Positions 71 to 62,226 of a stretch of 64,000 nt of DNA are shown piece by piece. The notes under the pieces are model-generated. The model saw nothing but the letters and a program-made list of their open reading frames with translations. It was not told the origin of the DNA and ran no database searches. The stretch spans positions 165-64,164 of the forward strand of contig NZ_KB892467.1 in NCBI RefSeq assembly GCF_000373805.1. The letters run 5' to 3'. The position numbers were made by a program, and so were the translations under genes. This stretch comes from Corynebacterium pilosum DSM 20521 = CIP 103422. GTDB lineage: Bacteria > Actinomycetota > Actinomycetes > Mycobacteriales > Mycobacteriaceae. Numbering within the stretch: the stretch's first letter is position 1; each line of letters starts with the position of its first letter.

Positions 71-390
71 TAATCACGCCCCACACACAAACAACTTGAC
101 ACGCTCTCGGCCAGCAAAGTCATGGCGCTGGTGCCTGCGTCCCGGAGCATGTCGTTAATGGTCATGAACCTGACACTAAAACACCCACACAACCCAAGCG
201 CGGGGGTAGCCGGCACATGTCCGAAACCTGTGGAAAACAACATAGTTATCCACAGAAAAACAGTGGCCCACGCCACAACGGTTGCGCGCGCCACTAGCTT
301 CGGTACCATGTTTCGGCCACGCGATCGTCGTAAAGCAAAAACGCAGGATGTGTAGGGTGGGGGCACAACGCAACCAAAGAAAGGACCCCC
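71..390. other. Intergenic region with a DnaA-box-like pair
   Basis: This 320-base stretch has no convincing gene. The short open frames in it lack a ribosome binding site and have no recognisable composition. It holds an inverted pair of DnaA-box-like sites (228-255), one copy of the dispersed GCTTNNCGACGA motif (325-336, minus orientation) and, at its end, an AAAGGA ribosome binding site for the downstream oxidoreductase. A TTGACA hexamer near 95-100 has no good -10 partner, so I do not call a promoter. Confidence 0.5.
228..255. promoter_or_regulatory. Inverted pair of DnaA-box-like sites
   Basis: TTATCCACA at 246-254 is a perfect match to the strict bacterial DnaA box. It is paired with CTGTGGAAAA at 228-237 in inverted orientation, giving CTGTGGA(14 nt)TCCACAG. 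No dnaA or dnaN gene is nearby, so this is not the replication origin. It could be a DnaA-titrating or DnaA-regulated site, or simply an inverted repeat used by another regulator. Confidence 0.35.
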
Positions 391-1416
391 ATGGCCCGTC
401 TGCCACTGTCCCTCATTGATTTCTGCACGATCTACGAAGGCGAAACCGCCGGCGAATCCATGCAGCGTAGCGTCGAGCTGGCGCAGCGCGCGGAGAAGCT
501 GGGTTATTCGCGGATTTGGTACTCCGAGCACCACAATATGCCGACCATCGCGTCGAGCTCTCCCGCGGTGCTGATTAGCCACATCGGCGCGAAGACCGAG
601 AAGATCCGCCTGGGCGCCGGCGGCGTGATGCTGCCGAACCACTCCCCTTATGTGATCGCGGAGCAGTTCGGCACGCTCGGCGAGCTCTACCCCGACCGCA
701 TCGACCTGGGCCTGGGGCGCGCGCCCGGCACCGACCAGAACACGCTGGGGCGTGCTTTACGACGAGACCCCCGCGCCGCCGAGAACTTCCCGCAGGATGT
801 GGTGGAGCTCCACGGCTACTTCCGCGGGCGCCCGACCGTGCCTGGGGTGACTGCCGTGCCGGGCGTGGGCGTGAAGATGCCGCTGTACATCCTGGGCTCC
901 TCCATGTTTGGCGCGACCCTTGCCGCGAAGCTGGGGCTGCCGTACTCCTTCGCGTCGCACTTCGCGCCGCAGCACTTGGTGCAGGCCACGACGTACTACA
1001 AGGAAAGCTTTGAGCCTTCTGAGGTGCTGGATGAGCCATATGTGATCGCGGCGGTCAACGTCACAGCCGCGCCGACGCGCGAGGAAGCCGAAGAGCAGAC
1101 CGCCGGGGTGCACCGCAACCGCGTGAAGACCATGATGGGGCGCCGCGGCACGGTGCTTAACGACGAGCAGCTCGACCAGGTGGTGAACTCGCACCAGGGC
1201 CAGCAGATCATCGATATGCTGCGCTTCACCGGTGTGGGTACTGGCCCGGAGGTGGTGCAGTACCTGGAGGAGTTTGCGGAGCTGGCGAAGGCCGATGAGC
1301 TGATGATTTCGCTGCAGGGGCGTAATAATGCTGAGGCGATGGCGTCGATGGAGATCCTCGCCGACGCGTGGGGCCTGGATCCGGCCAACATGGTGGGCGA
1401 TCCCGGCAACTTCTAG
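391..1416 (+). CDS. LLM-class flavin-dependent oxidoreductase (luciferase-like monooxygenase)
   Basis: This 341-residue protein has the luciferase-like TIM-barrel fold that uses reduced FMN or F420 to oxidise small organic substrates. Visible family marks are the N-terminal LPLSLIDF strand, the segment GYSRIWYSEHHNMP around residue 40, and DLGLGRAPGTD near residue 110, which is typical of the group related to alkanal monooxygenase alpha subunits. A good ribosome binding site (AAAGGA) lies 7 bases before the ATG. The gene stands alone, converging on an AEC transporter only 12 bases away. The natural substrate cannot be inferred. Two exact copies of the dispersed 12-mer lie inside the gene (754 and 1155). 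Confidence 0.85.
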   Translation: MARLPLSLIDFCTIYEGETAGESMQRSVELAQRAEKLGYSRIWYSEHHNMPTIASSSPAVLISHIGAKTEKIRLGAGGVMLPNHSPYVIAEQFGTLGELYPDRIDLGLGRAPGTDQNTLGRALRRDPRAAENFPQDVVELHGYFRGRPTVPGVTAVPGVGVKMPLYILGSSMFGATLAAKLGLPYSFASHFAPQHLVQATTYYKESFEPSEVLDEPYVIAAVNVTAAPTREEAEEQTAGVHRNRVKTMMGRRGTVLNDEQLDQVVNSHQGQQIIDMLRFTGVGTGPEVVQYLEEFAELAKADELMISLQGRNNAEAMASMEILADAWGLDPANMVGDPGNF

Positions 1417-1428
1417 CGGCGCGACAGA

Positions 1429-3457: not shown

Positions 3458-4960
3458 ATGGCAACGAACAGGGCGACCCGCACCGCCACCCGCGCGGTAG
3501 CCGTGCTGGGCACCGCCGGGCTGCTGGCGTCGTGCTCCGCGGGTTCCACGGCGACGCAGGTCGGCAGGGTCGCGGGCGCGGGAGTGGTCGTCGGCACGTC
3601 CGGCGCACCCGCCAGCCTCGATTTCACCACCACCGGCGGCGCCGCAATCCCTCAAGCGCTCATGTCCAACGTGTACGAAACGCTGGTACGCATCGACGAC
3701 ACCGGCACCCCCGTCCCCCACTTGGCGGAGAGCATTGCGCGTAACGACGATGGCCTGCGCTATACCTTTGAGCTGCGCGAGGGGGTGTTCTTCTCTAATG
3801 GTGACGAGTTCACTGCTGAAACCGCCGCGTTTTCCATCAACTATGTGAAGAATGAATGGACGAACGGGTTGAAGGCGCAGATGGATCCGGTGGAGTCGGT
3901 GGATGTCGTCGATAAGCACACGCTCGTCGTGACGCTGAGTGCTCCGTCGAATCGGTGGTTGTGGTCGATGGGCACGCTGACGGGGGCGATGATGACGCCA
4001 AATGGGGTGGATTCTTTGGCGACGGACCCGGTCGGCACGGGGCCGTACACGGTGGATCGTTTTAATGTGGGCGAGTCGATTACCTTTGCCGCGCGCGAGG
4101 ATTATTGGTCTACGCCGGCGCACCATAATGCGGCGATCCGCTACTTCGCGGACTCTGTGGCCAGCGTCAACGCTTTGCGCGCCGGCGATGTGGACGTGGT
4201 GTGGGCACTCCAGGCGCCTGAGCTTCTGGATTCGCTTCCCGACGATTACCGCGTCCAAGTCGGCTCCACCAATGGCGAGGTGATCTTCTCCATGAACAAT
4301 GACTCAGCCCCCTTCGACGACCCGACCGTGCGCCAGGCCGCCGCCTACGCCATCGACCGCGACGCGCTGAACCAGGTGGTCTACGAGGGCTTGGGCACCA
4401 ACACCGGTGGGGCGCCGGTCCCGCCGAGCGACCCGTGGTACACCGGCCGCGACTACTACCCCTTCGACCCGGCGCGCGCCCGCGAGCTGTTGGCCGGTCG
4501 CACCCCTGAGCTCACAATCTCTGTGCCCAGCCAGCCTTATGCGCAGAAGGCCGCGGAGCTGATTTATTCGCAGCTGACGGAGGTGGGCTTCCGCGTCACG
4601 TTGGAGACCTTGGAGTTTCCTGCGGTGTGGTTGGGGCAGGTGATGAATCAGCACGATTATCAGGCGTCGATCATCGCGCATGTGGAGCCGCGCGATATCC
4701 CCGCGCTGTTTGGCAATCCGGACTATTACCTGCGCTACGACTCCCCAGAAGTGCGCAAGGAGCTGGCGCTTGCCGACGAGGGCGATACCGCACGCCAGGT
4801 CACCCACATGGAGGCCGCGGTGGACCAGATCATGGCGGATGCCGGCGCACTCACACTGGCGAATAGTCCGAATATTGTGCTCACAGCACCTGGGGTGATC
4901 GGCATCGATGCCGATGTGATCACCGATGCCCTTCCGCTGGCGGGGGTGCAGCGCCCATGA
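3458..4960 (+). CDS. ABC transporter substrate-binding lipoprotein, peptide/nickel family (SBP family 5)
   Basis: This 500-residue extracytoplasmic solute-binding protein starts with a basic N-terminus, a short hydrophobic core and a lipobox (LLASC, Cys about residue 27), so it should be lipid-anchored outside the membrane. The body matches family 5 binding proteins (DppA/OppA type): VYETLVRIDDTGTPVPHLAES, TYTFELREGVFFSNGDEFTA-like segments and GTGPYTVDRF. The ribosome binding site is weak (AGGC), perhaps because of coupling to the preceding GntR gene. The stop overlaps the start of the first permease by 4 bases. Likely cargo is an oligopeptide or peptide-like compound, but the specificity is not readable. 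Confidence 0.88.
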   Translation: MATNRATRTATRAVAVLGTAGLLASCSAGSTATQVGRVAGAGVVVGTSGAPASLDFTTTGGAAIPQALMSNVYETLVRIDDTGTPVPHLAESIARNDDGLRYTFELREGVFFSNGDEFTAETAAFSINYVKNEWTNGLKAQMDPVESVDVVDKHTLVVTLSAPSNRWLWSMGTLTGAMMTPNGVDSLATDPVGTGPYTVDRFNVGESITFAAREDYWSTPAHHNAAIRYFADSVASVNALRAGDVDVVWALQAPELLDSLPDDYRVQVGSTNGEVIFSMNNDSAPFDDPTVRQAAAYAIDRDALNQVVYEGLGTNTGGAPVPPSDPWYTGRDYYPFDPARARELLAGRTPELTISVPSQPYAQKAAELIYSQLTEVGFRVTLETLEFPAVWLGQVMNQHDYQASIIAHVEPRDIPALFGNPDYYLRYDSPEVRKELALADEGDTARQVTHMEAAVDQIMADAGALTLANSPNIVLTAPGVIGIDADVITDALPLAGVQRP

Positions 4961-5916
4961 CCTCCAGTGTTGTTTACTTCGCGGGCCGGATGCTCGCCCG
5001 CTTTGTCATCATGTTGTTTCTTGCCAGCGTGATCATCTTCGTGTTGTTGCGCGCCATCCCTGGTGATCCGGCGCGCATCGCGTTGGGGGTCACCGCCACC
5101 GACGAGTCTGTGGCGGAGCTCTCGGCCCGCCTGGGCACGGATCGGCCCCTGATCGCCCAGTATCTGGATTGGATGGCTGGGCTGCTCACCGGCAATTTCG
5201 GAATCTCTTTGGCCAGCCAGCAGGACATCACACCGCTGATGGTAGATCGGGCGCAGGTTTCGCTGATTCTGTGCGGGGCGGCCATGGTGGTCTCCTTGCT
5301 GATCGCGATCCCCACGGGTGTGTATTTGGCCCGGCGCGACCACCGCCCGGATGCGGCGATCGTGTCGGCGGGTACCCAGCTGGGCATCGCGGTGCCCAGT
5401 TTTTTGGTGGGTATCTTGCTGGTGGCGGTCTTTGCCGTGCGGCTGAACTGGTTGCCCGCCAACGGCTGGGTTCCGCCGGGCCAGGACTTCGGGGCGTTCG
5501 TGTCCCACCTGGTGTTGCCGGTGATAGCGCTGTCCTTGGTGCAGGCGACGATTTTGACCCGCTACGTACGCAGCGCGATTGTGGAGGAGTTGCACAAGGA
5601 CTACATCCGGACGGCTCGGGCGGGGGGATCGTCGACAAGCGAAGCCCTCTACCGCCATGCTCTGCGTAACGCGGCGCTGCCTGTGCTGACCGTGACGGGG
5701 CTGCAGCTGACCAGCCTGATTGTGGGCGCGGTGGTAATTGAGCGCGTGTTCGTGATTCCGGGACTGGGGTCGATGCTGATCGATTCGGTGGCCAACCGCG
5801 ATCTGACCACCGTGCAGACGGTGATGATGCTGCTGGTCGTATTCACGCTCACCGTTAATTTGGTCGTGGATGTGGCGTACCGGGTCATCGACCCTCGGCT
5901 GAGGAGTCGCGCATGA
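4957..5916 (+). CDS. ABC transporter permease, DppB/OppB family
   Basis: This 319-residue integral membrane protein has about six helices and the hallmarks of the first permease of peptide importers: an N-terminal helix ending in FVLLRAIPGDPAR, then LGTDRPLIAQYLDW, and the cytoplasmic EAA loop near residues 220-240 (TARAGGSSTSEALYRHALRN) that contacts the ATPase. It overlaps the binding-protein gene and the second permease by ATGA in each case, so the four genes are translationally coupled. A copy of the dispersed 12-mer (5629-5640) falls exactly in the EAA loop, where many homologues have a K-G residue pair. Confidence 0.9.
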   Translation: MTSSVVYFAGRMLARFVIMLFLASVIIFVLLRAIPGDPARIALGVTATDESVAELSARLGTDRPLIAQYLDWMAGLLTGNFGISLASQQDITPLMVDRAQVSLILCGAAMVVSLLIAIPTGVYLARRDHRPDAAIVSAGTQLGIAVPSFLVGILLVAVFAVRLNWLPANGWVPPGQDFGAFVSHLVLPVIALSLVQATILTRYVRSAIVEELHKDYIRTARAGGSSTSEALYRHALRNAALPVLTVTGLQLTSLIVGAVVIERVFVIPGLGSMLIDSVANRDLTTVQTVMMLLVVFTLTVNLVVDVAYRVIDPRLRSRA

Positions 5917-6725
5917 AACTCTCTGGTTGGATTGGGGCGGGCATCGTGGGCCTGGTCGTTATCATGGCGGTGGTCGCTGTGGTGTGGACGCCTTATGACC
6001 CCACGCAGGCGCTTGTCGACGATCGCCTCGCCGCGCCGAGTGCTGCCCACTGGTTGGGCACTGATCAGTTTGGTCGCGATATTCTCTCCCGCATCATGGA
6101 AGGCGCCCAGGTGACCTTGGCGGTGGGGTTGGTCGCGGTGGCGATCTCCGCGCTGGTGGGCGTGCCGCTGGGGATCATGGCCGGGCAGCGGCGTGGCTGG
6201 GCCGAAACCTTGATCATGCGGGGTGCGGACCTGCTGCTGGCTTTTCCGGCGTTGTTGCTGGCCATCGTGTTTACGGCGGTGTTTGGGGCGTCCACGAGCA
6301 TTGTGATGTTGGCGATCGGGATTGCCGGCATCCCAGGCTTTGCGCGCGTGGCCAGGGCCGGCACGCTGCGGGTGATGACGCAAGACTATATCCTCGCCGC
6401 CCGCATCTCCGGGGTGTCCGGGCCGATGATCGCGTGGCGGCATATCCTGCCCAATATTGTGGGCGTGATCATCGTCCAGATGTCCGTCGGCTTTGCCCTG
6501 GCCATCCTTGCGGAGGCGGGCTTGTCCTTCCTAGGCCTGGGCACCCCTGCCCCTTATGCCAGCTGGGGCCGCATGCTGCAGGCTTCCCAGGGCTACCTGG
6601 CCTCCGCCCCGCACTTGGCGATCGCCCCCGGTATAGCCATCGCCGCCACGGTGCTGGGCTTCAACCTGCTCGGCGACGGGCTGGCGGGTAGCCGACGCCT
6701 TGTACCAGGGAAGGAGACGGCATGA
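5913..6725 (+). CDS. ABC transporter permease, DppC/OppC family
   Basis: This 270-residue second permease of the importer begins with one membrane helix followed by the DppC signature HWLGTDQFGRDILSR near residues 45-60. Transmembrane segments follow, then an EAA loop with YILAARISGVSGPMIAWRHILPN. The protein pairs with the preceding DppB-like permease to form the channel. Start and stop both overlap their neighbours by four bases (ATGA). The 270-residue length is normal for the family, though the N-terminus is short. Confidence 0.9.
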   Translation: MKLSGWIGAGIVGLVVIMAVVAVVWTPYDPTQALVDDRLAAPSAAHWLGTDQFGRDILSRIMEGAQVTLAVGLVAVAISALVGVPLGIMAGQRRGWAETLIMRGADLLLAFPALLLAIVFTAVFGASTSIVMLAIGIAGIPGFARVARAGTLRVMTQDYILAARISGVSGPMIAWRHILPNIVGVIIVQMSVGFALAILAEAGLSFLGLGTPAPYASWGRMLQASQGYLASAPHLAIAPGIAIAATVLGFNLLGDGLAGSRRLVPGKETA

Positions 6726-8101
6726 TCAGCGTTCATAACCTTTCGATCCGCAGCGCCTCAGGCGACCAGATCCTGGACGACATCTCCTTTGACCTCGCCC
6801 CCGGCGAGCGCCTGGGCATCATCGGCGAATCCGGCTCCGGCAAATCCATGACGGCCCTAGCATTGATGGGCCTGCTGCCGCGATCCGTGGACGCCTCGGG
6901 CGAGGTGATCGTCGATAAGCACAACATACTCACCGCACCCGCGCGCGTGACCCGCAAGATCCGCGGCCGGAAGATCGGCATGGTTTTCCAGGAACCGATG
7001 ACCGCGCTGGATCCGCTCATGCCCGTGGGCCGGCAGGTCTCGCGCGATGCGGCGCGTGCCGACGAGCTCCTGGCCGACGTCGGTGTCACCCGGCCCGGCG
7101 CCTATCCGCATGAGCTGTCCGGCGGACAGCGCCAACGCGTGCTGATCGCCAAGGCCTTAGCCGGCGAGCCCGACCTGCTGATTTGTGACGAACCCACCAC
7201 CGCCCTGGACACCACCACGCAGGCGCAGGTACTTGACCTGATCGAGCGCCTGGTTGCCGAACGCGGCATGGCGCTGCTGTTCATTTCCCATGACCTGGCG
7301 GTGGTGCGCCGCATGACTGAGCGCGTGCTAATTTTCCAACACGGACGCACCGTCGCCCCGGATTCCGACTACGCCCAAGCCCTCGTGGCTGCCTCGCGCC
7401 CCGGTCCGCCCGCCGCTGCGCGCCCGCTGGGTGAGCCTGTGATCGAGCTGGACCGCGTCAGCCTGCGCCGCGGCGACACCCTCGCCGTCGACGATATGTC
7501 ACTGACCGTCCGCCGCGGCCAACGCCTCGGGCTGGTTGGTGGTTCCGGCTCCGGCAAGACCTCCCTGCTGCGTTTGATCGCCGGTTTGAGTACCCCGGAT
7601 TCGGGCACCGTGCGCGTGGGCGGTCGCCTGCAGATGGTCTTCCAGGACCCGGCCGGCTCCCTGAACCCGCGACTAACCGTCGGCACCTCCATCCGCGAGG
7701 CCGGCGGCCGCGACGCCCCCGTCGACGCTGTGCTGGAGCAGGTCGGGCTGCCCGGGGTGGCCGGCCGCTACCCGCACGAATTCTCCGGCGGCCAGCGCCA
7801 ACGCATCTCGATTGCGCGCGCCGCCAGCCCCCGCCCCGAGATTTTGCTTGCCGACGAACCCGTCTCCGCCCTCGATGTCACAGTGCGCGCCCAGGTGCTT
7901 GACCTGCTGAATTCGCTTGTCGACGACGATGGCCTCACCCTCGTGTTCGTCTCCCACGATCTGTCGGTGGTGCGCACCGTGTGTCCCACCCTCGCCGTTG
8001 TGTATGAAGGCCGCATCGTTGAAGCCGGCGACACCGAGGAAATCTGGGCCAACCCCCAACACGAGTACACCCGGCACCTGCTGGACGCCGTCCCGCGCTG
8101 A
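6722..8101 (+). CDS. Fused double ATP-binding subunit of peptide-type ABC importer (DppD-DppF fusion)
   Basis: The 459-residue protein contains two complete ABC nucleotide-binding domains. The first has Walker A GESGSGKS at residues 35-42, signature LSGGQRQRV and Walker B LLICDEPTTALD. The second has Walker A GGSGSGKT at about 275, signature FSGGQRQRI and Walker B ILLADEPVSALD. Each ends with the switch histidine (FISHDL, FVSHDL). It therefore replaces the separate D and F ATPases of standard dipeptide importers. The usual C-terminal oligopeptide-transporter extension after each domain is trimmed, making the protein shorter than many fusions. It is the last gene of the operon, and a 77-base inverted repeat follows. 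Confidence 0.92.
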   Translation: MISVHNLSIRSASGDQILDDISFDLAPGERLGIIGESGSGKSMTALALMGLLPRSVDASGEVIVDKHNILTAPARVTRKIRGRKIGMVFQEPMTALDPLMPVGRQVSRDAARADELLADVGVTRPGAYPHELSGGQRQRVLIAKALAGEPDLLICDEPTTALDTTTQAQVLDLIERLVAERGMALLFISHDLAVVRRMTERVLIFQHGRTVAPDSDYAQALVAASRPGPPAAARPLGEPVIELDRVSLRRGDTLAVDDMSLTVRRGQRLGLVGGSGSGKTSLLRLIAGLSTPDSGTVRVGGRLQMVFQDPAGSLNPRLTVGTSIREAGGRDAPVDAVLEQVGLPGVAGRYPHEFSGGQRQRISIARAASPRPEILLADEPVSALDVTVRAQVLDLLNSLVDDDGLTLVFVSHDLSVVRTVCPTLAVVYEGRIVEAGDTEEIWANPQHEYTRHLLDAVPR

Positions 8102-8771: not shown

Positions 8772-9223
8772 GTCTCCACCGCCAGGGTGCGGGCCACCGA
8801 ATCGAAAAGGAAGGTCACCCGCCCAGGCCCAGACAACATGGCGGCAACAGGCCCCAGCATCGGTTCGTGAACATAGCTGACCAGGTGAGTTCCAGCCTCA
8901 GAGCGCAGCACCACCCGATCCATCCGCGGCACGCCCAGCACGCTGATCAGGGCGCGGGGCACGCGCAGCGAGGCTTCCGTGTCCTCCACATCCACCGTCC
9001 AGGCCACCACGCCATCACCGCGATCAACCAGGTCAGAACCTTCCACGAACCACGTTTCACCGCGGTAATCGTCGTCAAGCATGACCTGCCCGTCGACGAT
9101 TCTGAAATCGCCAGCCTCGGCCACGGTGCGTAGCGCTGGGCGTGGAAAAGGGGAGGTATCCAGCATGCGTTGCAGGTCGGTGCGGCCGGCGGCCAGCTCG
9201 TCTGCGATCCATTCAGCAATCAT
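8768..9223 (-). CDS. Hypothetical protein, corynebacterial type
   Basis: I do not recognise a named family. With the ATG at 9223 (preceded by AAGG) the product is 151 residues, acidic and without signal peptide or membrane helices. It has repeated beta-strand-like segments (FRIVDGQVMLDDDYRG, VVAWTVDVEDTEASL, RVTFLFDSVA), suggesting a small soluble beta-rich fold. The open frame extends 17 codons upstream, but that part overlaps the 10-base gap to the next gene and has no ribosome binding site. It is the gene before thpR, with a 4-base overlap. Confidence 0.65.
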   Translation of the reverse strand: MIAEWIADELAAGRTDLQRMLDTSPFPRPALRTVAEAGDFRIVDGQVMLDDDYRGETWFVEGSDLVDRGDGVVAWTVDVEDTEASLRVPRALISVLGVPRMDRVVLRSEAGTHLVSYVHEPMLGPVAAMLSGPGRVTFLFDSVARTLAVET

Positions 9224-9352: not shown

Positions 9353-10618
9353 CTATAGCCTGCGGGCAAGGTGGAAGAGGGTGTCGGCGATCGTGTCCCC
9401 CGCCCGCCGGATGCCGTCGTGCTGGTACTTCGCGGTCTCCCACACGGTCATGTGCGGCAGCAAAGCGGCTGTGTTCAGCGACATCGCGCGCGGGACGAAC
9501 ATGTCGTTGGTGTACACCGCGGCGGCACAGCTGCTCTCCGCTTCGGCCAGCGCGGACGGATCATAGAGCGCCGACCAATCATCCTTGACGGCCAGGCGGT
9601 GGGCGGCCTCGCGCAGGGGCTGCAGGGCCGGGTCCTCGTCGAAAAGAAACGGGAAGATGTGCTCTCCGGTCAGGTAGAAGGGGTCCTCGCCTGTGGGGTC
9701 AGCATCGGGTGCGAAACCCTCAAGCTGCTCAGAGACGCGCTGCGCCGACCACGCCGTGGCCGCGCCGGGCGCCCCGTAAATGGATTCGTGGATGAGGGCA
9801 TACAGCGGGGTGCGCTCGAAACTGACCCGCTGACCCACCTCCGCCAGGAAATCGGGCTGCAGTCGCTTTTCGCCGCGCACTGTATAGAAAGGTGCATCAA
9901 ACAACATGGCCATGTCCGCAATGCCATTGCCACGTCCCAACCCGATACCCACGGTGCGCAGCCGGCGCGAGCTCAAACGCTCCCCGGTGGGCAACGTCTC
10001 ATCCGCGTTGTCCAGGTGGTGGCACACCTCGCGCACGCGCTCCTCCGCCCACGGAACTTGATCGTAGAACTCGCGGTGGCGCAGCTCCATCGTGGCAAAG
10101 GTGGCGCGGTAGACGTCGTCGGCATGCACGCCCACCCCGGGCAGGCCGCCGGTGAAGTACGCGCGCCCCACCGACTCCGGCGCCACCGACAGGTAGTGCG
10201 TGATGCAGAACCCGCCAAAGGACTGCCCCAACACGTCCCACCGCTCCAGCCCCAGCGCCTGGCGCAGCTCCTCGGCGTCGGCCACAATATTGTCGGCGCG
10301 CAGCAGTGGGAGCAGGGAATCGTCGTTAAGCGAATGCCTGTCCACACGCGAGGAACGACCGGTGCCGCGCTGGTCCAGCAACACCACGCGGTAGTGGCGT
10401 AGGGCGGTGGCCAGCCAGCCGTCGATGTCCGTGGGCCGCGGCGCCGGGTTGCCGGGCCCGCCCTGCAGGTAAAGCAAGGTGGGCGCGGCGGGATCGGCGA
10501 CCAGTTCGCGGGCGAAGAGCTGGCAGTTGCCGCGGGTGGGGTCGGTGCGGTCCCACGGCACGGGCAGGGTGTGGTCGTGGATGGTCAGGCCACCGTAGGT
10601 TGCTGAAACTGTTCTCAC
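9353..10618 (-). CDS. Alpha/beta hydrolase, proline iminopeptidase-like
   Basis: This is a serine hydrolase of the alpha/beta fold, peptidase family S33 type. The oxyanion segment LYLQGGPGNPAPRP, the DQRGTGRS strand and the nucleophile elbow GQSFGGF are all present in order. The C-terminal part carries the expected acid and a His-containing segment (AKYQHDGIR). I chose GTG 10618 because it is preceded by TAGGAT and gives 421 residues. The longer frame would begin with an arginine/glycine-rich stretch inside the divergent gene. It is divergent from the mutarotase gene with only 29 bases between starts. It probably removes N-terminal residues from peptides, but could be another hydrolase. Confidence 0.85.
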   Translation of the reverse strand: MRTVSATYGGLTIHDHTLPVPWDRTDPTRGNCQLFARELVADPAAPTLLYLQGGPGNPAPRPTDIDGWLATALRHYRVVLLDQRGTGRSSRVDRHSLNDDSLLPLLRADNIVADAEELRQALGLERWDVLGQSFGGFCITHYLSVAPESVGRAYFTGGLPGVGVHADDVYRATFATMELRHREFYDQVPWAEERVREVCHHLDNADETLPTGERLSSRRLRTVGIGLGRGNGIADMAMLFDAPFYTVRGEKRLQPDFLAEVGQRVSFERTPLYALIHESIYGAPGAATAWSAQRVSEQLEGFAPDADPTGEDPFYLTGEHIFPFLFDEDPALQPLREAAHRLAVKDDWSALYDPSALAEAESSCAAAVYTNDMFVPRAMSLNTAALLPHMTVWETAKYQHDGIRRAGDTIADTLFHLARRL

Positions 10619-10647: not shown

Positions 10648-11370
10648 ATGAAGATCCTCGACTATGGTGCCCACGTCCTCTCCGCCCCCACCCCAACCGG
10701 CGACCTCTTCTTCGTCTCCTCGGACGCCGCCCTCGACGGCAGCGCGCCCGTGCGCGGCGGCCTCCCACTGATCGCCCCCTGGTTCGCAAAATTCTTAGGC
10801 GACCAGCAGCACGGCTGGGCCCGCTCCAGCGTGTGGGAGATCGATGGAACGCAGGGCACGCTTAACGACGATTACCTCGAGCTTCGTTTCGCCGCGCAAG
10901 AGATCGAGAACGGCTGGCGTTTCGAACTCAGCTGCACCAACACCGGCGATACTGTGCGCAAAATCCAGCTGGCGTTCCACCCCTACTTCGCGGTCAGCGC
11001 GGTGGCTGACGTGGTGGTGCGTGGCATCGATGGCGTGAATGTGTGGGACCGCGTCAACCATGACAAGGCGCTGTACAAGGGTGACTTCACCTTCTCTGGT
11101 TTGACGGACCGGATCGCCCTGGCAGCCCCAGAGGTCACGGTGGAGGATGCCAACCGCCGCCTGACCATCACCGCGGAGGGCACTGATTCCACCGTGCTGT
11201 GGAACCCCGGCGCGGAGGGAGGTGCGCGCCTTGGGGATCTCGGCGAGGGCGAATGGGACAACTTCGTGTGCGTCGAACCAGCACTACTGGGCACCAACGC
11301 CGAGGGCGTAGATTTGCCTGGTGGGGAGACCGCGGTAATTGCAATGGAAGTCACCGCCACTATGGTGTGA
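10648..11370 (+). CDS. D-hexose-6-phosphate mutarotase / aldose 1-epimerase family protein
   Basis: This 240-residue protein of the galactose mutarotase-like fold resembles YeaD-type hexose-6-phosphate epimerases that interconvert alpha and beta anomers. Visible marks are RGGLPLIAPWF near residue 36, the presumptive catalytic histidine in LAFHPYFAV near residue 110 and the catalytic glutamate in VCVEPAL near residue 208. The start codon ATG 10648 follows AAGC, a weak ribosome binding site. The stop is followed after three bases by the GTG of the FUSC gene, so the two are probably co-transcribed. Confidence 0.82.
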   Translation: MKILDYGAHVLSAPTPTGDLFFVSSDAALDGSAPVRGGLPLIAPWFAKFLGDQQHGWARSSVWEIDGTQGTLNDDYLELRFAAQEIENGWRFELSCTNTGDTVRKIQLAFHPYFAVSAVADVVVRGIDGVNVWDRVNHDKALYKGDFTFSGLTDRIALAAPEVTVEDANRRLTITAEGTDSTVLWNPGAEGGARLGDLGEGEWDNFVCVEPALLGTNAEGVDLPGGETAVIAMEVTATMV

Positions 11371-15767: not shown

Positions 15768-15814
15768 CGACGAGGCCATCGCTTTAATACGGGTTCTCCC
15801 GTAGTATTTGGGGT

Positions 15815-52076: not shown

Positions 52077-53531
52077 CTAGCTAAGTTCTGGCGCGGCGGT
52101 CGCGGTGACCGTGTAGCCGTCATCCAATTCGATCGTGATCGTTGCCACGCCGTTGTCATCCACGCTGAGCGTTTCGACGACAGCGGGACCAAAATCGCTG
52201 CGCTGCACATCTACCTCGCTGAGGTCCGAGCAGTACCGCAGGTTGTGGTCAAAGGGAACGTAGACCTCCGCCAGAACGGTGAAGTCGCCCGGGGTGTCGT
52301 CGTCAAGCGAGGAATACTCGATATAGCGAAACACGCCGATATTGTGGGCGGCCCGGTATCGCCTAGTCACCGTGGTGGTGGGATCTTCTGGCCCCACCAG
52401 TTCGTCGAAGGAGATTTGGCTGCCCTCGTGCGCCTCGCGGAACACCCCGATCCGTCGCGCGAGGCGGTCGGTGAGGTGGAAATCAGACTCCGGGTCCGCC
52501 GCGATCGCAAGCCCAATCGCCGTCGACGCAGTGGGCAGCTGCGAACGGTGCACGCGCCTTCCGTAGCGTTCCCGCAAGACCCGCGAGACCAGAGGCAACG
52601 CAGACGCCCCGCCGACCAAGTAAATGCCGGCGATCTCCGTATCGCGCAGGCTGTTTTGCTCCCCCAGCAACGGCACGATGGCCTCCATCGTGCGCTCCAC
52701 AAGAGGTGTGGCGGCCTCATAAAAATCGGCGACAGGAACGGTGACTGCTCCGCCAGGCAGGTCGATCAGCACCCGGCGGGTTTGCGGCTTAATCGCCTCT
52801 TTTGCTTCGCGGATCCTGTCCATCACGGCAGGGGGCACACCATCGGCCAGCACCTTCGGCGGCAGGGCAAGACCGGCCAAGACATCGTCGAAATCATCGC
52901 CGCCCAAACGCGCAATACCCGTGGATCGTTCCACCACATGGTCCAACCCATCGATGCGCAGCAAGGTCGCATCAAAAGTGCCGCCACCCAGGTCAAACAC
53001 GATGATCGAGGTACGCTTCGTGTTCAGAGTGCGCGCGTAGCGGTGGGTGTATTCGAAACCGGCAGCACTTGGCTCATTGATCAGGCCAATCACGGTGGCG
53101 CCGGCTCGTCGAAAAGCATCCATGGTGAGCAGGCGCTGGGTCGACCCTGCGTTGGCCGGGACACCAAGCACGATCTCCACCGGCTCGTCGGCAGGCTGCT
53201 GGGCTCGGAGCTGGTCGATGATATAGCGTGCGAAGGTTGCGAGCACTTCGGGGATCGTCGATACGCGATCACCGACCGTGACCTCAGTGTGCGGGCCGAT
53301 ATCCGGCGCAGACAAGAGACGCTTGAACGAGCGCGTGACGACGACGCCCTGGTCTACCGCAGCCATCGCGTCCCAGCCGGCGCGGATGTTTCCCTCGACC
53401 AACCCAACGACGGTGGGAACATACTCGTGGAGGTCGCCCTGCGGGTCTGGGATATTCACCACAGGGTAGTTCCCGCGATCAACAGCGGCGATCACTGTCC
53501 TTGTGGTGCCAAAATCAATACCGTAACGCAT
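52077..53531 (-). CDS. Hsp70 family protein (truncated DnaK-like)
   Basis: This 484-residue actin-fold ATPase of the Hsp70 superfamily shows phosphate-1 [15 protein letters not shown] at the N-terminus, [20 protein letters not shown], phosphate-2 [14 protein letters not shown] near residue 195 and the adenosine segment [15 protein letters not shown] near 305. The C-terminal 110 residues are not a normal peptide-binding domain: they are short and lack the lid, so this is not a full DnaK chaperone. The gene is on the valS strand, 42 bases downstream of mdh and upstream of valS. It is conserved in that position in corynebacteria as I recall, with unknown function. Confidence 0.88.
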
Positions 53532-55722: not shown

Positions 55723-57000
55723 CTAGGCGGACTTTTCTTCGTCGGCAAGCACGAAGGTTGGCTCGCCCTCGCCGCGGACAACGGCATCGGAAATGATGAC
55801 TTCGTCGATGTCTTCGCGATCAGGCAGGTCGTACATGATCGGCACCAAGACTTCTTCCATGATGGCGCGCAGGCCACGGGCACCGGTTCCCCGTTCTGCG
55901 GCCTTGTCCGCGATTTCACCAAGGGCTTCCTCGGTGAACGTCAAGGTGGCATCATCCATGGAGAACAGGCGCTCATACTGCTTTACCAGGGAGTTTTTCG
56001 GCTCAGTAAGGACCTTGATCAGGGATTCGCGGTCCAGGTTGTCCACCGTAGCCACGATCGGCAGGCGCCCGATGAACTCCGGGATCAGGCCGAACTTCAC
56101 CAGGTCTTCAGGCTGCACCTTCTTCAGGATCTGCTGCTCTTCGCGCTCTTTCTCCGACTCAATTTCTGCGCCGAAGCCAATGCCCTTCTTGCCCACGCGC
56201 TCCGCGATGACCTTCTCTAGGCCCGCGAACGCACCGGCAACGATGAACAGAACGTTGGTGGTGTCCAGCTGAATGAATTCCTGGTTCGGGTGCTTCCGCC
56301 CGCCCTGTGGCGGCACGGATGCGACGGTGCCCTCCAAGATCTTCAGCAGCGCCTGCTGCACGCCCTCGCCCGAAACGTCGCGGGTGATCGAGGGGTTTTC
56401 AGACTTACGCGAAATCTTGTCCACCTCATCGACGTAGATGATGCCGCGCTGCGCACGCGCCACGTCGAAGTCAGCGGCTTGCAGCAGTTTCAGCAGGATA
56501 TTTTCTACGTCCTCACCGACATAGCCAGCCTCAGTCAGGCTGGTGGCATCGGCGATGGCGAAAGGCACGTCGAGCATGCGCGCCAAGGTCTGCGCTAGGT
56601 ACGTCTTGCCGGAGCCGGTGGGGCCCAGCAGCAAGATATTGGACTTGGCGATCTCTACCGCGTCATCACGCTTCTTCCTCGTGGACGCTGCCTCTTCTGC
56701 GCGAATGCGCTTGTAGTGGTTGTATACAGCCACCGACAGGGTGCGCTTGGCCTCATCTTGGCCGATGACATAATCGTCGAGGAACGCGGAGATCTCCGAA
56801 GGCCGCGGCAGACGCTGCCTCTTCGAATCTTCCTCGGCCTGGGCGCCTTGGAGTTCCTCTTCGATAATCTCATTACACAACTCAATGCACTCATCGCAGA
56901 TGTACACTCCGCCACCCGCGATGAGTTTCTTCACCTGCTTTTGGCTCTTTCCGCAGAAAGAGCACTTCAGCAGGTCGGAGCTATCTTGAGTCACTGACAT
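55723..57000 (-). CDS. clpX: ATP-dependent Clp protease ATP-binding subunit ClpX
   Basis: The 425-residue unfoldase feeds ClpP. The N-terminal zinc-binding domain has [20 protein letters not shown] and [10 protein letters not shown] (two C-x2-C pairs). The AAA+ domain has Walker [17 protein letters not shown] near residue 120, Walker [15 protein letters not shown] near 185, the pore-loop [11 protein letters not shown] and C-terminal sensor regions. The length is normal. Upstream 218 bases separate it from the start region of benE. The far end carries a dispersed 12-mer at 55739. Confidence 0.97.
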
Positions 57001-57199
57001 GAGGTTTAAACGCTCGCTTTTCCGTTCGCTTGTACTTCCAGCCTGCAGGGTAGCCCGATTGTAGCGAGTTCCCCACAGATTGTCCCACCCAGCTTAGTAG
57101 CAAGCGCGCTTAACGACGATTCCCCCGTCTGCGCGTCGCGATTAGCGCCACTGCCCGGCAATTGTGGACTCGAGAGGTTCAACCAAAAGTAGGCTAAAA

Positions 57200-57245: not shown

Positions 57246-58472
57246 ATGACCAAGCTCCTCGGTGCGATTGAACGCCCCCAGCTCCCACGCCCCACCTTCC
57301 GCGAGTTCCTCCGCGATGCAGGCCCCACCGAGATCGGCAACGGCCTGGTCGCGTTTATCTTTTCCGCTTCCGGCCCGGTTGCTGTGATTCTCGCGGCGAC
57401 CGCCGCAGGAAATTTTTCACCAGAGCAGACATCTTCCTGGATCTTGGGCGCGTTCTTGGGCAACGGCATCATCACCTTATTGATGACGTACCTCTACCGC
57501 TCCCCCATGGCCTTTTATTGGACGATCCCGGGCACAGTGTTGGTCGGCGATGCGCTGAGACACTACACGCTCAATGAAGTCGTCGGCGCCTATATCGTTA
57601 CCGGCCTATTTGTCTTCGTGCTGGGATGGACTGGCCTCATCCAAAGGATTATGGCCTTGATCCCCTCCACCATCGTCATGGCCATGGTGGCGGGCGTCTT
57701 TTTACGCTTCGGCACTGACTTAATCGGCGCGCTTGTCGACGATCCCGTGATGGCCGTCCCGATGACAGTATTATTCGTCATTCTCACCATGATCCCAGCC
57801 GCCGGTAAATGGCTGCCCCCAGTTGCCACCGCGGCGGTACTGGGAACCATTATCGCCTTGGCTGCGGGAAGGTTCGAAGGCGACCTTGCAGCCAATGGAA
57901 TTTTCGCCACTCCGCAGCTTGTTGCACCTGTGTTTTCTTGGGGCGCAATGGTGGAGCTGGTCATTCCTCTAGCAATTACCGTCGTCTTTGTGCAGAACGG
58001 CCAAGGGCTCGCGGTGCTGCGTGCCGCCGGCCACAACCAGGGCACGAACCTCTCCTCCGCGATCTCGGGCCTGTGGTCGCTTCCCGTCGGGCTGTTGGGG
58101 TGCGCGTCGACATGCTTAACGGGCCCGACGAACGCCCTGCTGGTCTCCAGCAAGGATTCTTCCCGCCACTACGCAGCCGCAATCGTCAACGCCATTGCCG
58201 CGATTTTGGTGGGCTTTGTCGCCCCGGTGTTTGTGGCATTCATGCTTGGTATGCCCGCTTCATTCATCGCAGCGCTAGCCGGGTTGGCCATGCTCACCCC
58301 ACTCAAGAATGCGTTTGTCGCCGGTTTCTCCGGCCCATTTTCCACCGGTGCTTTGGCGTGCTTCCTGGTCACCATCGCAGAAGTTACGTTCCTAGGCCTG
58401 TCCGCCCCGTTTTGGGGACTGGTTGCCGGGGTAATCGTCGGTAAGCTTCTAGATAAAGAAGTAAAGGCGTGA
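57246..58472 (+). CDS. benE: Benzoate/H+ symporter family protein BenE
   Basis: The 408-residue membrane protein belongs to the BenE family with about eleven helices. Its N-terminal segment FREFLRDAGPTEIGNGLVAF and ASGPVAVILAATAAGNFSPE is typical. A central hydrophilic part includes VQNGQGLAVLRAAGHNQGTN and an aromatic-acid-transport region CASTCLTGPTNALLVSSKDS. It imports benzoate with protons. ATG 57246 is chosen over the frame's earlier start, which would overlap the operator palindrome. The gene heads benE-benR, with benR starting three bases after its stop. Confidence 0.9.
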   Translation: MTKLLGAIERPQLPRPTFREFLRDAGPTEIGNGLVAFIFSASGPVAVILAATAAGNFSPEQTSSWILGAFLGNGIITLLMTYLYRSPMAFYWTIPGTVLVGDALRHYTLNEVVGAYIVTGLFVFVLGWTGLIQRIMALIPSTIVMAMVAGVFLRFGTDLIGALVDDPVMAVPMTVLFVILTMIPAAGKWLPPVATAAVLGTIIALAAGRFEGDLAANGIFATPQLVAPVFSWGAMVELVIPLAITVVFVQNGQGLAVLRAAGHNQGTNLSSAISGLWSLPVGLLGCASTCLTGPTNALLVSSKDSSRHYAAAIVNAIAAILVGFVAPVFVAFMLGMPASFIAALAGLAMLTPLKNAFVAGFSGPFSTGALACFLVTIAEVTFLGLSAPFWGLVAGVIVGKLLDKEVKA

Positions 58473-58475: not shown

Positions 58476-60737
58476 ATGGCCCAGCAAGCTGATCAATTTC
58501 TGCGTAGGCGTTTGGTTGAGAGAGTCGTCGGCATTGTGCATGCCCACACGCAACGGCTCATCATCATTCCTGCCGCCGAGGGTTTGGGGGCGCGCCGCTT
58601 TCTTGACGGTCTCGCTTCCCACTTCCCTAAAGAGAAAACGCAGGTGGTCAACGTTCTGCCCTGGGATTTGAGCTACCCCGGCGCGTTGCTCACCCAGCTC
58701 AAGGACCGCCCCGATGATGCCATCGTGTTCATTCACGATTTCGACAAAGCCGACGACACCTCGTTTCGTGAGCTGGTCACCGCCGCTAAACGTCACGGGG
58801 TTCGCATTGTGACCACGGTGTCGTCGGAACGCTTGAATGTGCTTGCCGACGACATCATCAGCTTGACCCCCTTCACGCTCCCAGAGACGGATCAGTTTGC
58901 TCGCGCATTGACTGGGCATAAACTTCCGGCGCTGCTGATCGAAGACTTGTATTTCGCTACTCGGGGCCGGCCGGATTATGTGGCTGAGATGCTGGATGTG
59001 GCCCCGCGGGACTACTGGTCGCAGGCCAATACGGCGATCACGATCCCGGACTCTTGGCACTTAGAGTTCAACAAGTCCATCAAGGGGCTTCGCCCGGAGA
59101 CAATTGAGGCCTTATATGCCCGGCCCCTTGTGGCGGAGGATCTGAAGGAGGCGATCGCCGCGGGGATTATTGAGCTCCGCTCAACAGAGCTGGGGCAGGA
59201 AACGTTTTTCCGCGATCCTCGTTTTAATGCCATCACCCAAGCTGCTACCCCAAGTCCGCCGCGTGCCACCAATGCCATCTCGCGGGAGAAGTTGTTGCTG
59301 TCCAAAGCTCAGGCGCACGCCGATGACCTTGGCCTGGGGTCTGCCCAGTTGTTCCTGCAGGACTGTACCGGGGTGGTCAACGCGGAGCACCGCGACACCC
59401 TCACCGGCTATATCGCTTTGTATAGGGGCAACCGCGCCCAGGCGCAGACCTACCTGGAGCCAGTGACGAAGTCTCTGGAGCAGTCCGCCGCCGGATCGAT
59501 GTATGAGCTTGCCAACTGGAATCCGCGCGGGCTGGCGATGCGGGCACAGCACACCATGAGTTTGGCTAGCCCCGGTTCCGTACGTTACGAGGAAGCCCAC
59601 ATTCACCGCGCCTTCGCGTACCTGTTGGCCAATCGCACGCCCCCAGGTCAGCCACCAGAATTCCATCACGCGGTGTCGCGCGAACGCTATAACTTGTTCG
59701 GCGGGTGGGCGGCACTTGCCGACGATGATCCCATCTCTGCCCGCGAGCGCCTCCGCCCCGTGCCCGGCGGCGCCCTGTCTGTGGGGATGTGGCGCGATGC
59801 TCTCTTCGCCCGAACCCTATTCATCCTGGGCCAATGGAACGATGCCAAAGTGGTCGTCGAACGTGGCCTGTCTGCCTGCGAACTGCACGAGGTGGGCCTG
59901 CTTGAGCCGTTCCTGCTGTGGACCGGCGCGCTGATCGCGTCGATGGAGGGTGACCAATCCCTGGCACGGTCCTACGTGAACCGCGCCGGAGCCGGCAGCG
60001 ATTCCTTTGCACTGCAGCAGATCCCCGCGGCGATGGCCCGCCTGCTTGTCTCCGCCAACTTGTGGGATCTACATTCCACGGTCAGCGCCGCTGATGACCT
60101 CGCAGCCGCCGCCAAGCGCGCCGGTCCGCACCAGCCCGGCTTCTGGCCGTGGGAGGATATTTATGTCCAGACCTTGTTGCGTGCCGGGCGTGTCGATGAA
60201 GCCGAAGAGGCCCTCTCCGCGGCCGAGCAGCGCGCCAGCGGCGTGGACCTGCCCTCCTGGTTTGCTCGCCTGGCCGTCCCGCGCGCCACGATCATGCTGC
60301 AGCGCGGGGACACGGAACGGGCTTTATCGCTTTTCGACGATGCCGTCGACGCCGTCGAGCACTCCCCCATGCCGGTCTACGCCACCCGTGTGCTCTTTGA
60401 ATACGGCATCACGTTGCGCCGGATTGGGCGCCGGCAGCGTGCCGACGATATCTTCCGTCGCGCCTCCACCCTCTTTGAGGAGATGGGGGCGTATGCCATG
60501 GTGGAACGCTGCAACAAGGAACGCCAGCTCAGTGGCGTCGGTGGGCGCGTTCATTCACGCCTGGGCCTGACCGCCCAAGAGGAGCAGGTCGCACGCCTCG
60601 CTGCCGGTGGCACCACCAATCGGGAGATCGCTCTGCAGCTGACTGTGTCATTGAAGACCGTCGAGTTTCACCTCACCAATATCTACAAGAAGCTGGGCAT
60701 TCGCGGGCGGGCCGACTTGGCCGCCGCACTGGGATGA
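58476..60737 (+). CDS. benR: LuxR-type (LAL-like) regulator of benzoate genes, BenR
   Basis: The 753-residue protein has a C-terminal LuxR helix-turn-helix: LGLTAQEEQVARLAAGGTTN and REIALQLTVSLKTVEFHLTN. A long middle part of helical repeats (TPR/MalT-like) covers residues about 300-650. The N-terminal region reads RLIIIPAAEGLGARRFLDGL where LAL proteins have a P-loop, so the ATP site looks degenerate. In C. glutamicum the large LuxR regulator in this cluster is BenR, which activates ben genes. The gene is three bases after benE. One dispersed 12-mer each lies at 58841 and 60329. Confidence 0.87.
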   Translation: MAQQADQFLRRRLVERVVGIVHAHTQRLIIIPAAEGLGARRFLDGLASHFPKEKTQVVNVLPWDLSYPGALLTQLKDRPDDAIVFIHDFDKADDTSFRELVTAAKRHGVRIVTTVSSERLNVLADDIISLTPFTLPETDQFARALTGHKLPALLIEDLYFATRGRPDYVAEMLDVAPRDYWSQANTAITIPDSWHLEFNKSIKGLRPETIEALYARPLVAEDLKEAIAAGIIELRSTELGQETFFRDPRFNAITQAATPSPPRATNAISREKLLLSKAQAHADDLGLGSAQLFLQDCTGVVNAEHRDTLTGYIALYRGNRAQAQTYLEPVTKSLEQSAAGSMYELANWNPRGLAMRAQHTMSLASPGSVRYEEAHIHRAFAYLLANRTPPGQPPEFHHAVSRERYNLFGGWAALADDDPISARERLRPVPGGALSVGMWRDALFARTLFILGQWNDAKVVVERGLSACELHEVGLLEPFLLWTGALIASMEGDQSLARSYVNRAGAGSDSFALQQIPAAMARLLVSANLWDLHSTVSAADDLAAAAKRAGPHQPGFWPWEDIYVQTLLRAGRVDEAEEALSAAEQRASGVDLPSWFARLAVPRATIMLQRGDTERALSLFDDAVDAVEHSPMPVYATRVLFEYGITLRRIGRRQRADDIFRRASTLFEEMGAYAMVERCNKERQLSGVGGRVHSRLGLTAQEEQVARLAAGGTTNREIALQLTVSLKTVEFHLTNIYKKLGIRGRADLAAALG

Positions 60738-60891
60738 ATATAATTGGTTTGTTTTTGAGGTCGAATGCGCTAAATTTTCTTTTCAGAAAAATTGCACAGT
60801 CCGTGACGCCGAGAGCCCTTGTGCCGAGCGGAAGCTACCCCGCCACCATTGTCGGGAGTAGTTCCCCTACGACACCACAAGGATACCCCGC
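60738..60891. other. Short intergenic region upstream of benK
   Basis: These 154 bases lie between benR and benK. An AT-rich tract follows the benR stop, and an AAGGA ribosome binding site precedes the benK ATG. There is a weak inverted repeat TGTCGGGAGTAG/CCCCTACGACA at 60849-60875. I see no clear promoter hexamers, so benK may be read through from benR or have its own regulated start here. Confidence 0.4.
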
Positions 60892-62226
60892 ATGGACATT
60901 CGTACCCGCATTGATTCATCCCGTATGACCGCCTACCAGTGGCTGATCATTGCCCTGGTCACCTACCTCAACGCTCTCGACGGCTATGACTTGGTCGCCA
61001 TCGCGTATTCTTCGACCGTCATCACCGAGCAGTTCAGCATTGGGCCGGCCGCCCTGGGCTGGTTGCTTTCCTCCGCTCTGCTGGGCATGGGCGTCGGTGC
61101 TCTACTCCTGGGGCCCCTGGCTGATAAGTTCGGTCGCCGCAAGATGATCATCGCCTCCATTCTGATCAACCTGGTGGGCTTGGTGATGACGGGCTTCGCC
61201 ACCACTTTCGGTGGCCTGTTGACCTGGCGTATCGTCACCGGCATCGGCGTCGGTGGCATCCTCGCCACCATCACCGTGGTGACCAGTGAATTCTCAAACC
61301 GCAAGTTCCGTGGTCTGGCCATGGCGATCTACGCCTCCGGCTACGGTCTCGGCGCCACGTTGTGCGGCACACTGGCAGCCCAGTTCATTCCGACGATCGG
61401 CTGGGAATGGATCTTCTTCACTGGCGCGATCCTGACCATTGTCGGTTTGCTCGGCGTTCTATTCGTACTTCCCGAGTCCACCGATTACCTGTCCAACCGC
61501 CGTGACCTCGATGGCGTCCGCAGCGTCTCCGCACGCATCGGGCATGGCACCGATGTGGAGCTCAACCCCGTCGTCCGCACAGAGAAAGCACCGCTGCGTG
61601 AGCTTGTCTCCGGCGATTTTCTTGGAGTCACGATTCGCCTCTGGATCGCATTCTCCTTGGTGAATTTCGGATTTAACTTCGCGAACTCTTGGACCCCGAA
61701 GCTGCTCACCGAAACCGGCATGACTGCCCAACAGGGCATCCTCGGTGGCATCATGCTCTCCTTCGGCGGCACGATCGGATCCCTCATCTTTGGCGTACTG
61801 ACCACCAAGATCTCGGCGCGTACCGTGTTGATTTCCTTCTCAATTTTGGGTGCCGGCACGCTCATCGCCTTCATCTACTCCACCGGCATCCCCACCCTTG
61901 CCTTCGCGCTTGGTGTTCTGGTGGGCATGCTGCTCAATGGCTGTGTCACCGGCATGTACACCGTCACCCCAGCCGCTTATCCTTCGCACCTGCGCGGGAC
62001 CGGCGTGGGAGCAGCCCTTGCGGCCGGCCGTGTTGGCGCGGTGTGTGGCCCACTTTTGATCGGCTACCTGGCCGAAGCCGGATGGTCCCCAGAAGCTTTG
62101 TACATCACGGTGGCCGCGGTGTTCGTATTCACGGCAGTGGCACTCTTTGGGTTGCGCTCCCCGGGAACCGCGGTGGTGTCGTCGGAAAGCGAAAAGCTGC
62201 CTATCACCGCTGCCTCAGCGCAGTAA
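60892..62226 (+). CDS. benK: Benzoate transporter BenK (MFS, aromatic acid:H+ symporter family)
   Basis: The 444-residue MFS carrier has twelve helices. Its start YQWLIIALVTYLNALDGYDL with an Asp in helix 1, the loop LGPLADKFGRRKMIIASILI and MAIYASGYGLGATLCGTLAA match the aromatic acid:H+ symporter (AAHS) group. The second half has GVGAALAAGRVGAVCGPLLI. It takes up benzoate or a related aromatic acid. Its start is preceded by AAGGA. The last 23 bases overlap the catC stop in antisense, so the ben and cat units converge at this point. Confidence 0.9.
   Translation: MDIRTRIDSSRMTAYQWLIIALVTYLNALDGYDLVAIAYSSTVITEQFSIGPAALGWLLSSALLGMGVGALLLGPLADKFGRRKMIIASILINLVGLVMTGFATTFGGLLTWRIVTGIGVGGILATITVVTSEFSNRKFRGLAMAIYASGYGLGATLCGTLAAQFIPTIGWEWIFFTGAILTIVGLLGVLFVLPESTDYLSNRRDLDGVRSVSARIGHGTDVELNPVVRTEKAPLRELVSGDFLGVTIRLWIAFSLVNFGFNFANSWTPKLLTETGMTAQQGILGGIMLSFGGTIGSLIFGVLTTKISARTVLISFSILGAGTLIAFIYSTGIPTLAFALGVLVGMLLNGCVTGMYTVTPAAYPSHLRGTGVGAALAAGRVGAVCGPLLIGYLAEAGWSPEALYITVAAVFVFTAVALFGLRSPGTAVVSSESEKLPITAASAQ

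Follow-up and report, generated by a model that had tools for sequence, protein, structure and literature searches.

The window analysed here, a 64,000-nucleotide stretch of Corynebacterium pilosum DSM 20521 (contig NZ_KB892467.1), is crowded with copies of a short bipartite word, GCTT-NN-CGACGA. By analogy with the uptake sequences of two Gram-negative families, we propose that GCTT-NN-CGA(C/T)G, the core of this word across the genus Corynebacterium, is probably a DNA uptake sequence with dialects in mycolic-acid Gram-positives, comparable to the DNA uptake sequence (DUS) of Neisseriaceae and the uptake signal sequence (USS) of Pasteurellaceae. We favour this reading because the word is dense, asymmetric, without replication polarity, bound to chromosomes, maintained and dialect-switching, in hosts that carry transformation genes. 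A preliminary description of the window had already likened the word to uptake sequences among several alternatives, and the existence of dialects, the absence of polarity, the low copy numbers in mobile elements and the competence genes carried by the hosts now favour that likeness over the others.

Both strands of the window were scanned for the exact motif GCTTNNCGACGA, i.e. GCTT-NN-CGACGA. Fifty-three copies were found, 25 on the plus strand and 28 on the minus strand, whereas 100 dinucleotide-preserving shuffles of the window yielded a mean of 0.25 copies and a maximum of 2. The preliminary description had counted 52 copies; its 25 plus-strand copies stand, and one copy had been overlooked on the minus strand, for which 27 were given. 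Its figure of about forty copies with one mismatch was too low, as 60 were counted, 27 of them being the single variant GCGTNNCGACGA. Within the GCTT half, only the GCGT substitution is common (27 window copies), and the CGACGA half is nearly invariant, its 18 single variants accounting together for 9 window copies. The gap holds 13 different dinucleotides, in line with the earlier estimate of at least twelve, and its length is strictly two bases: spacers of 0, 1 and 3 to 7 bases gave 0 to 3 copies each, compared to 53. The exact copies lie as follows.

325..336, minus strand: exact motif copy
754..765, plus strand: exact motif copy
1155..1166, plus strand: exact motif copy
3906..3917, minus strand: exact motif copy
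4234..4245, plus strand: exact motif copy
4768..4779, plus strand: exact motif copy
5629..5640, minus strand: exact motif copy
6011..6022, plus strand: exact motif copy
6909..6920, minus strand: exact motif copy, reads IVDKH in gene
7846..7857, plus strand: exact motif copy
7915..7926, plus strand: exact motif copy
9069..9080, minus strand: exact motif copy
10320..10331, minus strand: exact motif copy
10860..10871, plus strand: exact motif copy
12110..12121, minus strand: exact motif copy, reads IVDKH in FUSC gene
13227..13238, minus strand: exact motif copy
15659..15670, minus strand: exact motif copy
15762..15773, plus strand: exact motif copy, overlaps gene end
19218..19229, plus strand: exact motif copy, intergenic
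19981..19992, minus strand: exact motif copy, intergenic
20893..20904, minus strand: exact motif copy
22560..22571, minus strand: exact motif copy
23177..23188, plus strand: exact motif copy, within comEC
25405..25416, minus strand: exact motif copy
26131..26142, minus strand: exact motif copy
26222..26233, plus strand: exact motif copy
27951..27962, plus strand: exact motif copy
28725..28736, minus strand: exact motif copy
29976..29987, minus strand: exact motif copy
30338..30349, plus strand: exact motif copy
33579..33590, minus strand: exact motif copy
34384..34395, plus strand: exact motif copy
35677..35688, plus strand: exact motif copy
36120..36131, plus strand: exact motif copy
36347..36358, minus strand: exact motif copy
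40543..40554, plus strand: exact motif copy
45448..45459, minus strand: exact motif copy
45678..45689, plus strand: exact motif copy
45848..45859, minus strand: exact motif copy
46074..46085, plus strand: exact motif copy
46313..46324, minus strand: exact motif copy
48286..48297, minus strand: exact motif copy
49569..49580, plus strand: exact motif copy
50092..50103, minus strand: exact motif copy
52297..52308, minus strand: exact motif copy
53106..53117, minus strand: exact motif copy
55739..55750, minus strand: exact motif copy
57108..57119, plus strand: exact motif copy, intergenic
57731..57742, plus strand: exact motif copy
58435..58446, minus strand: exact motif copy
58841..58852, plus strand: exact motif copy
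60329..60340, plus strand: exact motif copy
62179..62190, minus strand: exact motif copy

Forty-eight of these copies are located inside called genes and five are not wholly within any gene. The genic copies fall into all six strand and frame classes, with one sense frame (25 copies) and one antisense frame (12 copies) dominating, so that the occurrence in several frames, in both orientations and in noncoding DNA was correctly described at the outset, and the sequence at copies 6909 and 12110 does spell IVDKH. When synonymous codons were shuffled within the window genes (100 runs), a mean of 2.5 and a maximum of 6 copies were obtained, far below the 48 actual ones. Likewise, the C. pilosum genome (2.53 Mb) contains 1,593 copies of GCTTNNCGACGA compared to 29 of the reversed-pattern control, well above chance. 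A peptide motif was rejected in view of the synonymous-codon null, the six strand and frame classes and the intergenic copies; all computations agree with recognition at the DNA level, as first argued. A bipartite asymmetric word of this form resembles the recognition sites of modification enzymes and could label DNA as self for a modification or defence system (by methylation, restriction or a system like BREX, bacteriophage exclusion). Such sites are, however, usually avoided or neutral in genomes, whereas the motif is enriched 50-fold, and the half-sites of type I restriction-modification systems are separated by about 5 to 8 bases, whereas the motif is found with a shorter spacer, of two bases only. 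We consider a modification mark very improbable.

A first count of the 12-mer in 150 other genomes of the genus gave 1 to 1,515 copies. A de novo word search in G143, an apparently motif-free genome, retrieved GCTTGNCGATG at 32 copies per 100 kb compared to 0.67 expected. Inspection of the three bases that follow GCTT-NN-CGA in samples from many genomes revealed that the last A is specific in some lineages only and that the base after CGA is C or T depending on the genome. The common core is GCTT-NN-CGA(C/T)G. The ten fixed bases first described are thus valid for the local form; genus-wide the final A is relaxed, and T can replace the C that precedes the last G. Dialects were counted in the 151 genus genomes by means of the nine-base cores GCTTNNCGACG (dialect 1, CGACG) and GCTTNNCGATG (dialect 2, CGATG). 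Dialect 1 was found in 103 genomes, with 280 to 1,891 copies (median 1,090; reversed-pattern controls 22 to 106), dialect 2 in 10 genomes, with 213 to 1,337 copies, and neither in the remaining 38, which contain at most 134 dialect-1 and 159 dialect-2 copies. The gap is clean, no genome having a dialect-1 count between 134 and 280. C. lubricantis and C. halotolerans, both non-pathogenic, are among the motif-rich species. None of 199 genomes sampled elsewhere in the order, from 60 genera, was comparably enriched (9-mer; top ratio to control about 1.7), nor was any of 57 genomes from 30 genera of the family outside Corynebacterium (12-mer). Of the 38 motif-less genomes, 12 were searched de novo (40 to 100 kb each, in which sparse words would escape detection), without revealing a further dense asymmetric word. 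Some local peculiarities were recorded in the course of these counts: in G014, nearly all CGACGA matches come from one repeat at one locus; the palindrome TAGAC-N6-GTCTA is over-represented in the motif-less genomes G147 (L037-L040) and G065 (L045-L048), with 8 counts per 80 kb each; and the palindrome ATGCA-NN-TGCAT is over-represented in G132 (L027-L031), with 8 counts per 100 kb.

The distribution of the dialects was followed on a tree of the helicase gene that adjoins the Tad locus (99 rows, 20 plus 79 rows named or from metagenome-assembled genomes), built by a quick method with one support value and several long branches, and in which the classes of named rows are based on about 22 kb each. 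The three motif classes require 11 changes on this tree compared to 28.5 when shuffled, and dialect 2 requires at least four changes judged by well-supported branches. A dialect-2 lineage of C. macginleyi with three relatives branches as sister to the dialect-1 group that contains C. tuberculostearicum and C. kefirresidentii, and the dialects interleave likewise on a ComEC tree. Dialects track phylogeny, yet sister groups can differ. One genome, G142, is mixed, 352 copies of dialect 1 standing beside 1,337 of dialect 2. Traces of dialect 2, from 93 to 159 copies, also occur in several dialect-1 genomes (the median of dialect-1 genomes being 52); some of these genomes fall inside the mixed clade on the ComEC tree. 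The minority-dialect copies in G142 and in the dialect-1 genomes of the mixed clade are fossils of the other dialect. Faded signals were also seen in G083 (159 dialect-2 copies, control 10) and in G128 and G131 (115 and 116 dialect-1 copies, controls 27 and 42, respectively). The mixed and faded genomes (G142, G083, G128, G131 and G061) may represent recent switches or losses. G014, G132 and G083 are motif-less genomes that lie inside motif-rich clades. It should also be mentioned that L177, a record titled Mycobacteriaceae bacterium, groups among Corynebacterium on the helicase tree.

These distributions bear on the main rival explanation, in which the motif would be bound by a nucleoid protein or chromosome organiser, such as a condensin loader or a domain-forming factor, and would be needed at high density. 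Copies that are evenly spread over both strands, restricted to the chromosome and selectively maintained would suit such a protein, and no uptake receptor emerged from the candidates that we compared (see below). However, the site of an essential protein should not be lacking altogether in 38 of the 151 genomes of a single genus, and a change of dialect between sister groups is unexpected for an essential site. In addition, the known organisers ParB and MatP recognise palindromes, whereas the motif is non-palindromic. An organiser site is a serious contender that we nevertheless judge unlikely.

We next turn to mobile DNA. Six plasmid records from motif-rich hosts (231.8 kb) contain 10 dialect-1 cores compared to about 137 at host density. 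Seven of the 10 are carried by pTP10, five of them within a chromosome-type gene block (L218:8609-13582, 8.6 to 13.6 kb) that extends from dihydroorotate dehydrogenase through a histidine-pathway phosphatase, and two in the tetAB genes. In the pTP10 block, the motif serves as a tracer of chromosomal origin. A second C. striatum plasmid has two cores, at aminoglycoside acetyltransferase and histidine kinase genes. Four phages (163 kb) contain 9 cores in all: 8 in the 80 kb of two C. xerosis phages, where about 65 would be present at host density, and 1 in the 82.9 kb of two phages of C. glutamicum-type hosts, for which the motif class of the host is not established. The motif is scarce across the ten records.

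The placement of the motif was analysed further in 400 kb sampled from the complete genome G088, where 170 genic copies were found compared to 9.4 in the synonymous-codon null. Thirty-nine of the 209 copies are not wholly genic, noncoding DNA making up 13% of the sample, and genic copies are skewed in orientation (110 sense, 60 antisense). Close pairs, separated by less than 60 bp, are mostly in opposite rather than the same direction (10 versus 2 in G088, 17 versus 1 in the named loci), and three inverted pairs of G088 fold as hairpins. The same genome has an intergenic tandem array of four copies spaced 93 bases apart (L129:18040-18330). Of the 15 sites aligned between the window and G141 (77% identity), 13 are retained, whereas random blocks predict 1.7. 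Over 13 locus pairs, 97 of 123 aligned sites are retained compared to 48.9 expected, and control words of the same make-up are retained as expected (17 of 39, 16.7 expected). This set omits five pairs of an earlier 15-pair comparison and adds three; all 15 earlier pairs give 101 of 141 sites retained. For dialect 2, three locus pairs retain 12 of 23 sites compared to 6.0 expected. Retention of the sites beyond that of their surroundings is not explained by mutation bias alone. The copies might still have spread as a side effect of biased gene conversion, or as a selfish word, without current use; motif-less genomes thrive, and copy number is continuous among carriers, both of which would fit. 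Against this stand the retention observed in G141 and the genome-wide dialect switches, which require a reader, and we regard a useless by-product as improbable.

The genes that an uptake sequence would serve are widespread. All 151 genus genomes have members of the ComEC and DprA families, and 143 of the 151 have the Tad membrane protein family T2SSF. The open frames around the ComEC family match differ widely in length: the shortest, of about 320 residues, include one at a contig end, the longest has 888 residues, and many are well under 700. In C. pilosum, the Tad locus comprises tadZ, tadA, tadB, tadC, flp, tadE and a tadE-like gene, named by position and similarity. In Micrococcus luteus, an actinobacterium, Tad genes are required for transformation, as reported in PMC4322843. 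The window itself carries the following genes.

22619..24007, minus strand: comEC, putative DNA translocation channel, 462 residues (PF03772, E 2.7e-43), predicted system member
24266..25045, minus strand: comEA, putative membrane DNA receptor with SLBB and C-terminal helix-hairpin-helix domains (PF12836, E 8.1e-21; PF10531, E 4.9e-7), predicted system member
29178-35809, plus strand: AdnA and AdnB helicase-nuclease genes, near comEA

The orientation of the copies relative to origin and terminus was determined in G088, using the 18 of 20 stretches with clear GC skew and omitting two near the origin (12 copies). No replication polarity was observed, with 98 leading-strand and 99 lagging-strand copies, and the strand totals over the 103 dialect-1 genomes are 55,403 and 55,233 copies. 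An abundant, chromosome-only word could direct the FtsK translocase as a polar signal (FtsK-orienting polar sequence, KOPS) or be another architecture-imparting sequence, but the 98:99 split excludes polarity unless a polar region near the terminus escaped the sample. Moreover, corynebacteria have a separate polar octamer for the architecture role: according to PMC2830990, the octamers of C. aurimucosum are of GGGGGA type, with 856 copies on the leading and 61 on the lagging strand. A polar guide was rejected on this absence of polarity, and its probability is close to negligible. The AdnA and AdnB genes adjoining comEA in the window raise another possibility, that of a Chi-like signal for a recombination helicase-nuclease such as AdnAB, Chi being also a short, asymmetric and over-represented word. 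Strong AdnB matches, however, were obtained in just 19 of 151 genomes (15 of dialect 1, 4 motif-less and none of the 10 of dialect 2) and are missing from the motif-rich genomes G088, G016 and G085, and the leading-strand bias is nil. The patchiness of AdnB and the lack of polarity exclude AdnAB as the reader, RecBCD and AddAB not having been searched for, and a Chi-like signal is extremely improbable.

Several observations weigh against an uptake sequence. The 38 motif-less genomes also carry comEC and dprA, and the five inspected all have a Tad locus; since comEC, dprA and tad are universal or nearly so, having or lacking these genes was rejected as the motif switch. Since the machinery is present in motif-less genomes, the motif would reflect receptor specificity and not competence as such. 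No T2SSF match was found in G070 or G074, two dialect-1 genomes whose completeness is good, or in the dialect-2 genome G072. The 8 cores of the C. xerosis phages exceed the single copy of the reversed control. In the dialect-2 sample, 3 opposite and 6 same-direction close pairs were counted, without the inverted excess that is a hallmark of DUS, whose inverted intergenic pairs can serve as terminators. In the alignment of the window with G088, which is more distant, 1 of 9 sites is retained compared to 0.56 expected. Natural transformation of Corynebacterium is not reported among the open-licence literature matches listed. Finally, no clear residue set tracking motif or dialect beyond that of neighbouring proteins was found in Tad pilins, ComEA or ComEC. 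Columns were compared between motif-plus and motif-minus genomes for TadE, the TadE-like pilin and Flp, net charge was also compared, and association with dialect was analysed in the mixed clade for seven Tad-locus proteins (including the flanking helicase), ComEA, ComEC, HolA and DegV. Two columns stood out as the most suggestive: an arginine of the TadE-like pilin is present in 12 of 12 dialect-1 rows and 1 of 12 dialect-2 rows, that row being the mixed G142, and a lysine or arginine of TadE likewise in 12 of 12 and 1 of 12 rows. Neither is used as support: dialect-associated columns also occur in the non-candidates Hel, HolA, DegV and TadZ, and no receptor is claimed for this reason.

With these points in mind, we propose that an uptake sequence would act as a self-mark on extracellular DNA, which Corynebacterium would read through a predicted receptor at the cell surface, belonging to its natural transformation machinery. 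A Tad/Flp-type competence pilus would bind motif-bearing extracellular DNA, ComEA and ComEC would then import it, and DprA and RecA would recombine it. Motif-bearing DNA would be taken up and recombined more often, and this biased recombination would multiply the copies and restore them, a mechanism put forward for Neisseria and Haemophilus. A change of receptor would allow a new dialect to displace the old one (CGACG to CGATG, apparently also the reverse), which would limit exchange between lineages.

We further lean, with less assurance, towards a third independent origin of self-recognition by uptake sequences, the first outside the two Gram-negative families, in which a Tad/Flp pilus would read GCTT-NN-CGACG or GCTT-NN-CGATG and dialect switches between sister species would act as mating barriers in skin and environmental corynebacteria. 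According to a 2025 paper (PMC12616744), discrimination of DNA at uptake is known only in Neisseriaceae and Pasteurellaceae, and the Pasteurellaceae receptor is so far only predicted. In that paper, the complex of ComN with DNA was modelled by AlphaFold 3. Neither an uptake sequence nor, as first stated, any such motif is described for corynebacteria among the open-licence literature matches listed, a set in which subscription journals and preprints are mostly outside the scope; a spaced-motif survey of many genomes reports, in its accessible part, only pairs of clustered regularly interspaced short palindromic repeats (CRISPR) for three Corynebacterium (PMC5217627). If the proposal is true, self-recognition in bacterial sex would be known from a third, unrelated case, in a Gram-positive genus that includes many human commensals, and would thus be shown to evolve repeatedly. 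Many Corynebacterium species would be predicted to be naturally transformable, and matching the dialect on DNA is suggested as a route to transform genetically recalcitrant strains. The repeated switches between sister species would provide a natural experiment on the origin of barriers and on the receptor residues that set them. The motif would also be a simple genomic marker to tell chromosome-derived from foreign DNA, as in the pTP10 block.

Among known systems, the closest parallels are with the DUS of Neisseriaceae, for which the minor pilin ComP is the receptor. PMC3630211 and PMC2397512 describe the DUS as a short asymmetric word whose copies number from hundreds to thousands, lie on either strand and fall both inside genes and in intergenic DNA, with phylogeny-tracking dialects that share an inner core, some related genomes lacking the word, and as highly conserved and rare in acquired DNA. 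The Corynebacterium motif differs in being unrelated in sequence and in having an internal two-base gap; its hosts are Actinomycetota with a mycolic-acid envelope and Tad/Flp-type pilus genes. The USS of Pasteurellaceae, as described in PMC2346458, is similar in density (about one per 1.5 kb), in its two dialect types and in favouring one orientation in reading frames, as does the motif in G088. By contrast, its core is of AAGTGCGGT type, and its Gram-negative hosts have another type of competence genes. Chi shares with the motif its shortness, asymmetry and over-representation, whereas the motif has neither polarity nor a matching enzyme among those searched for. KOPS and the architecture-imparting sequences of corynebacteria share its abundance on the chromosome and occur in the same genus, whereas these words are G-rich and strongly polar (PMC2830990).

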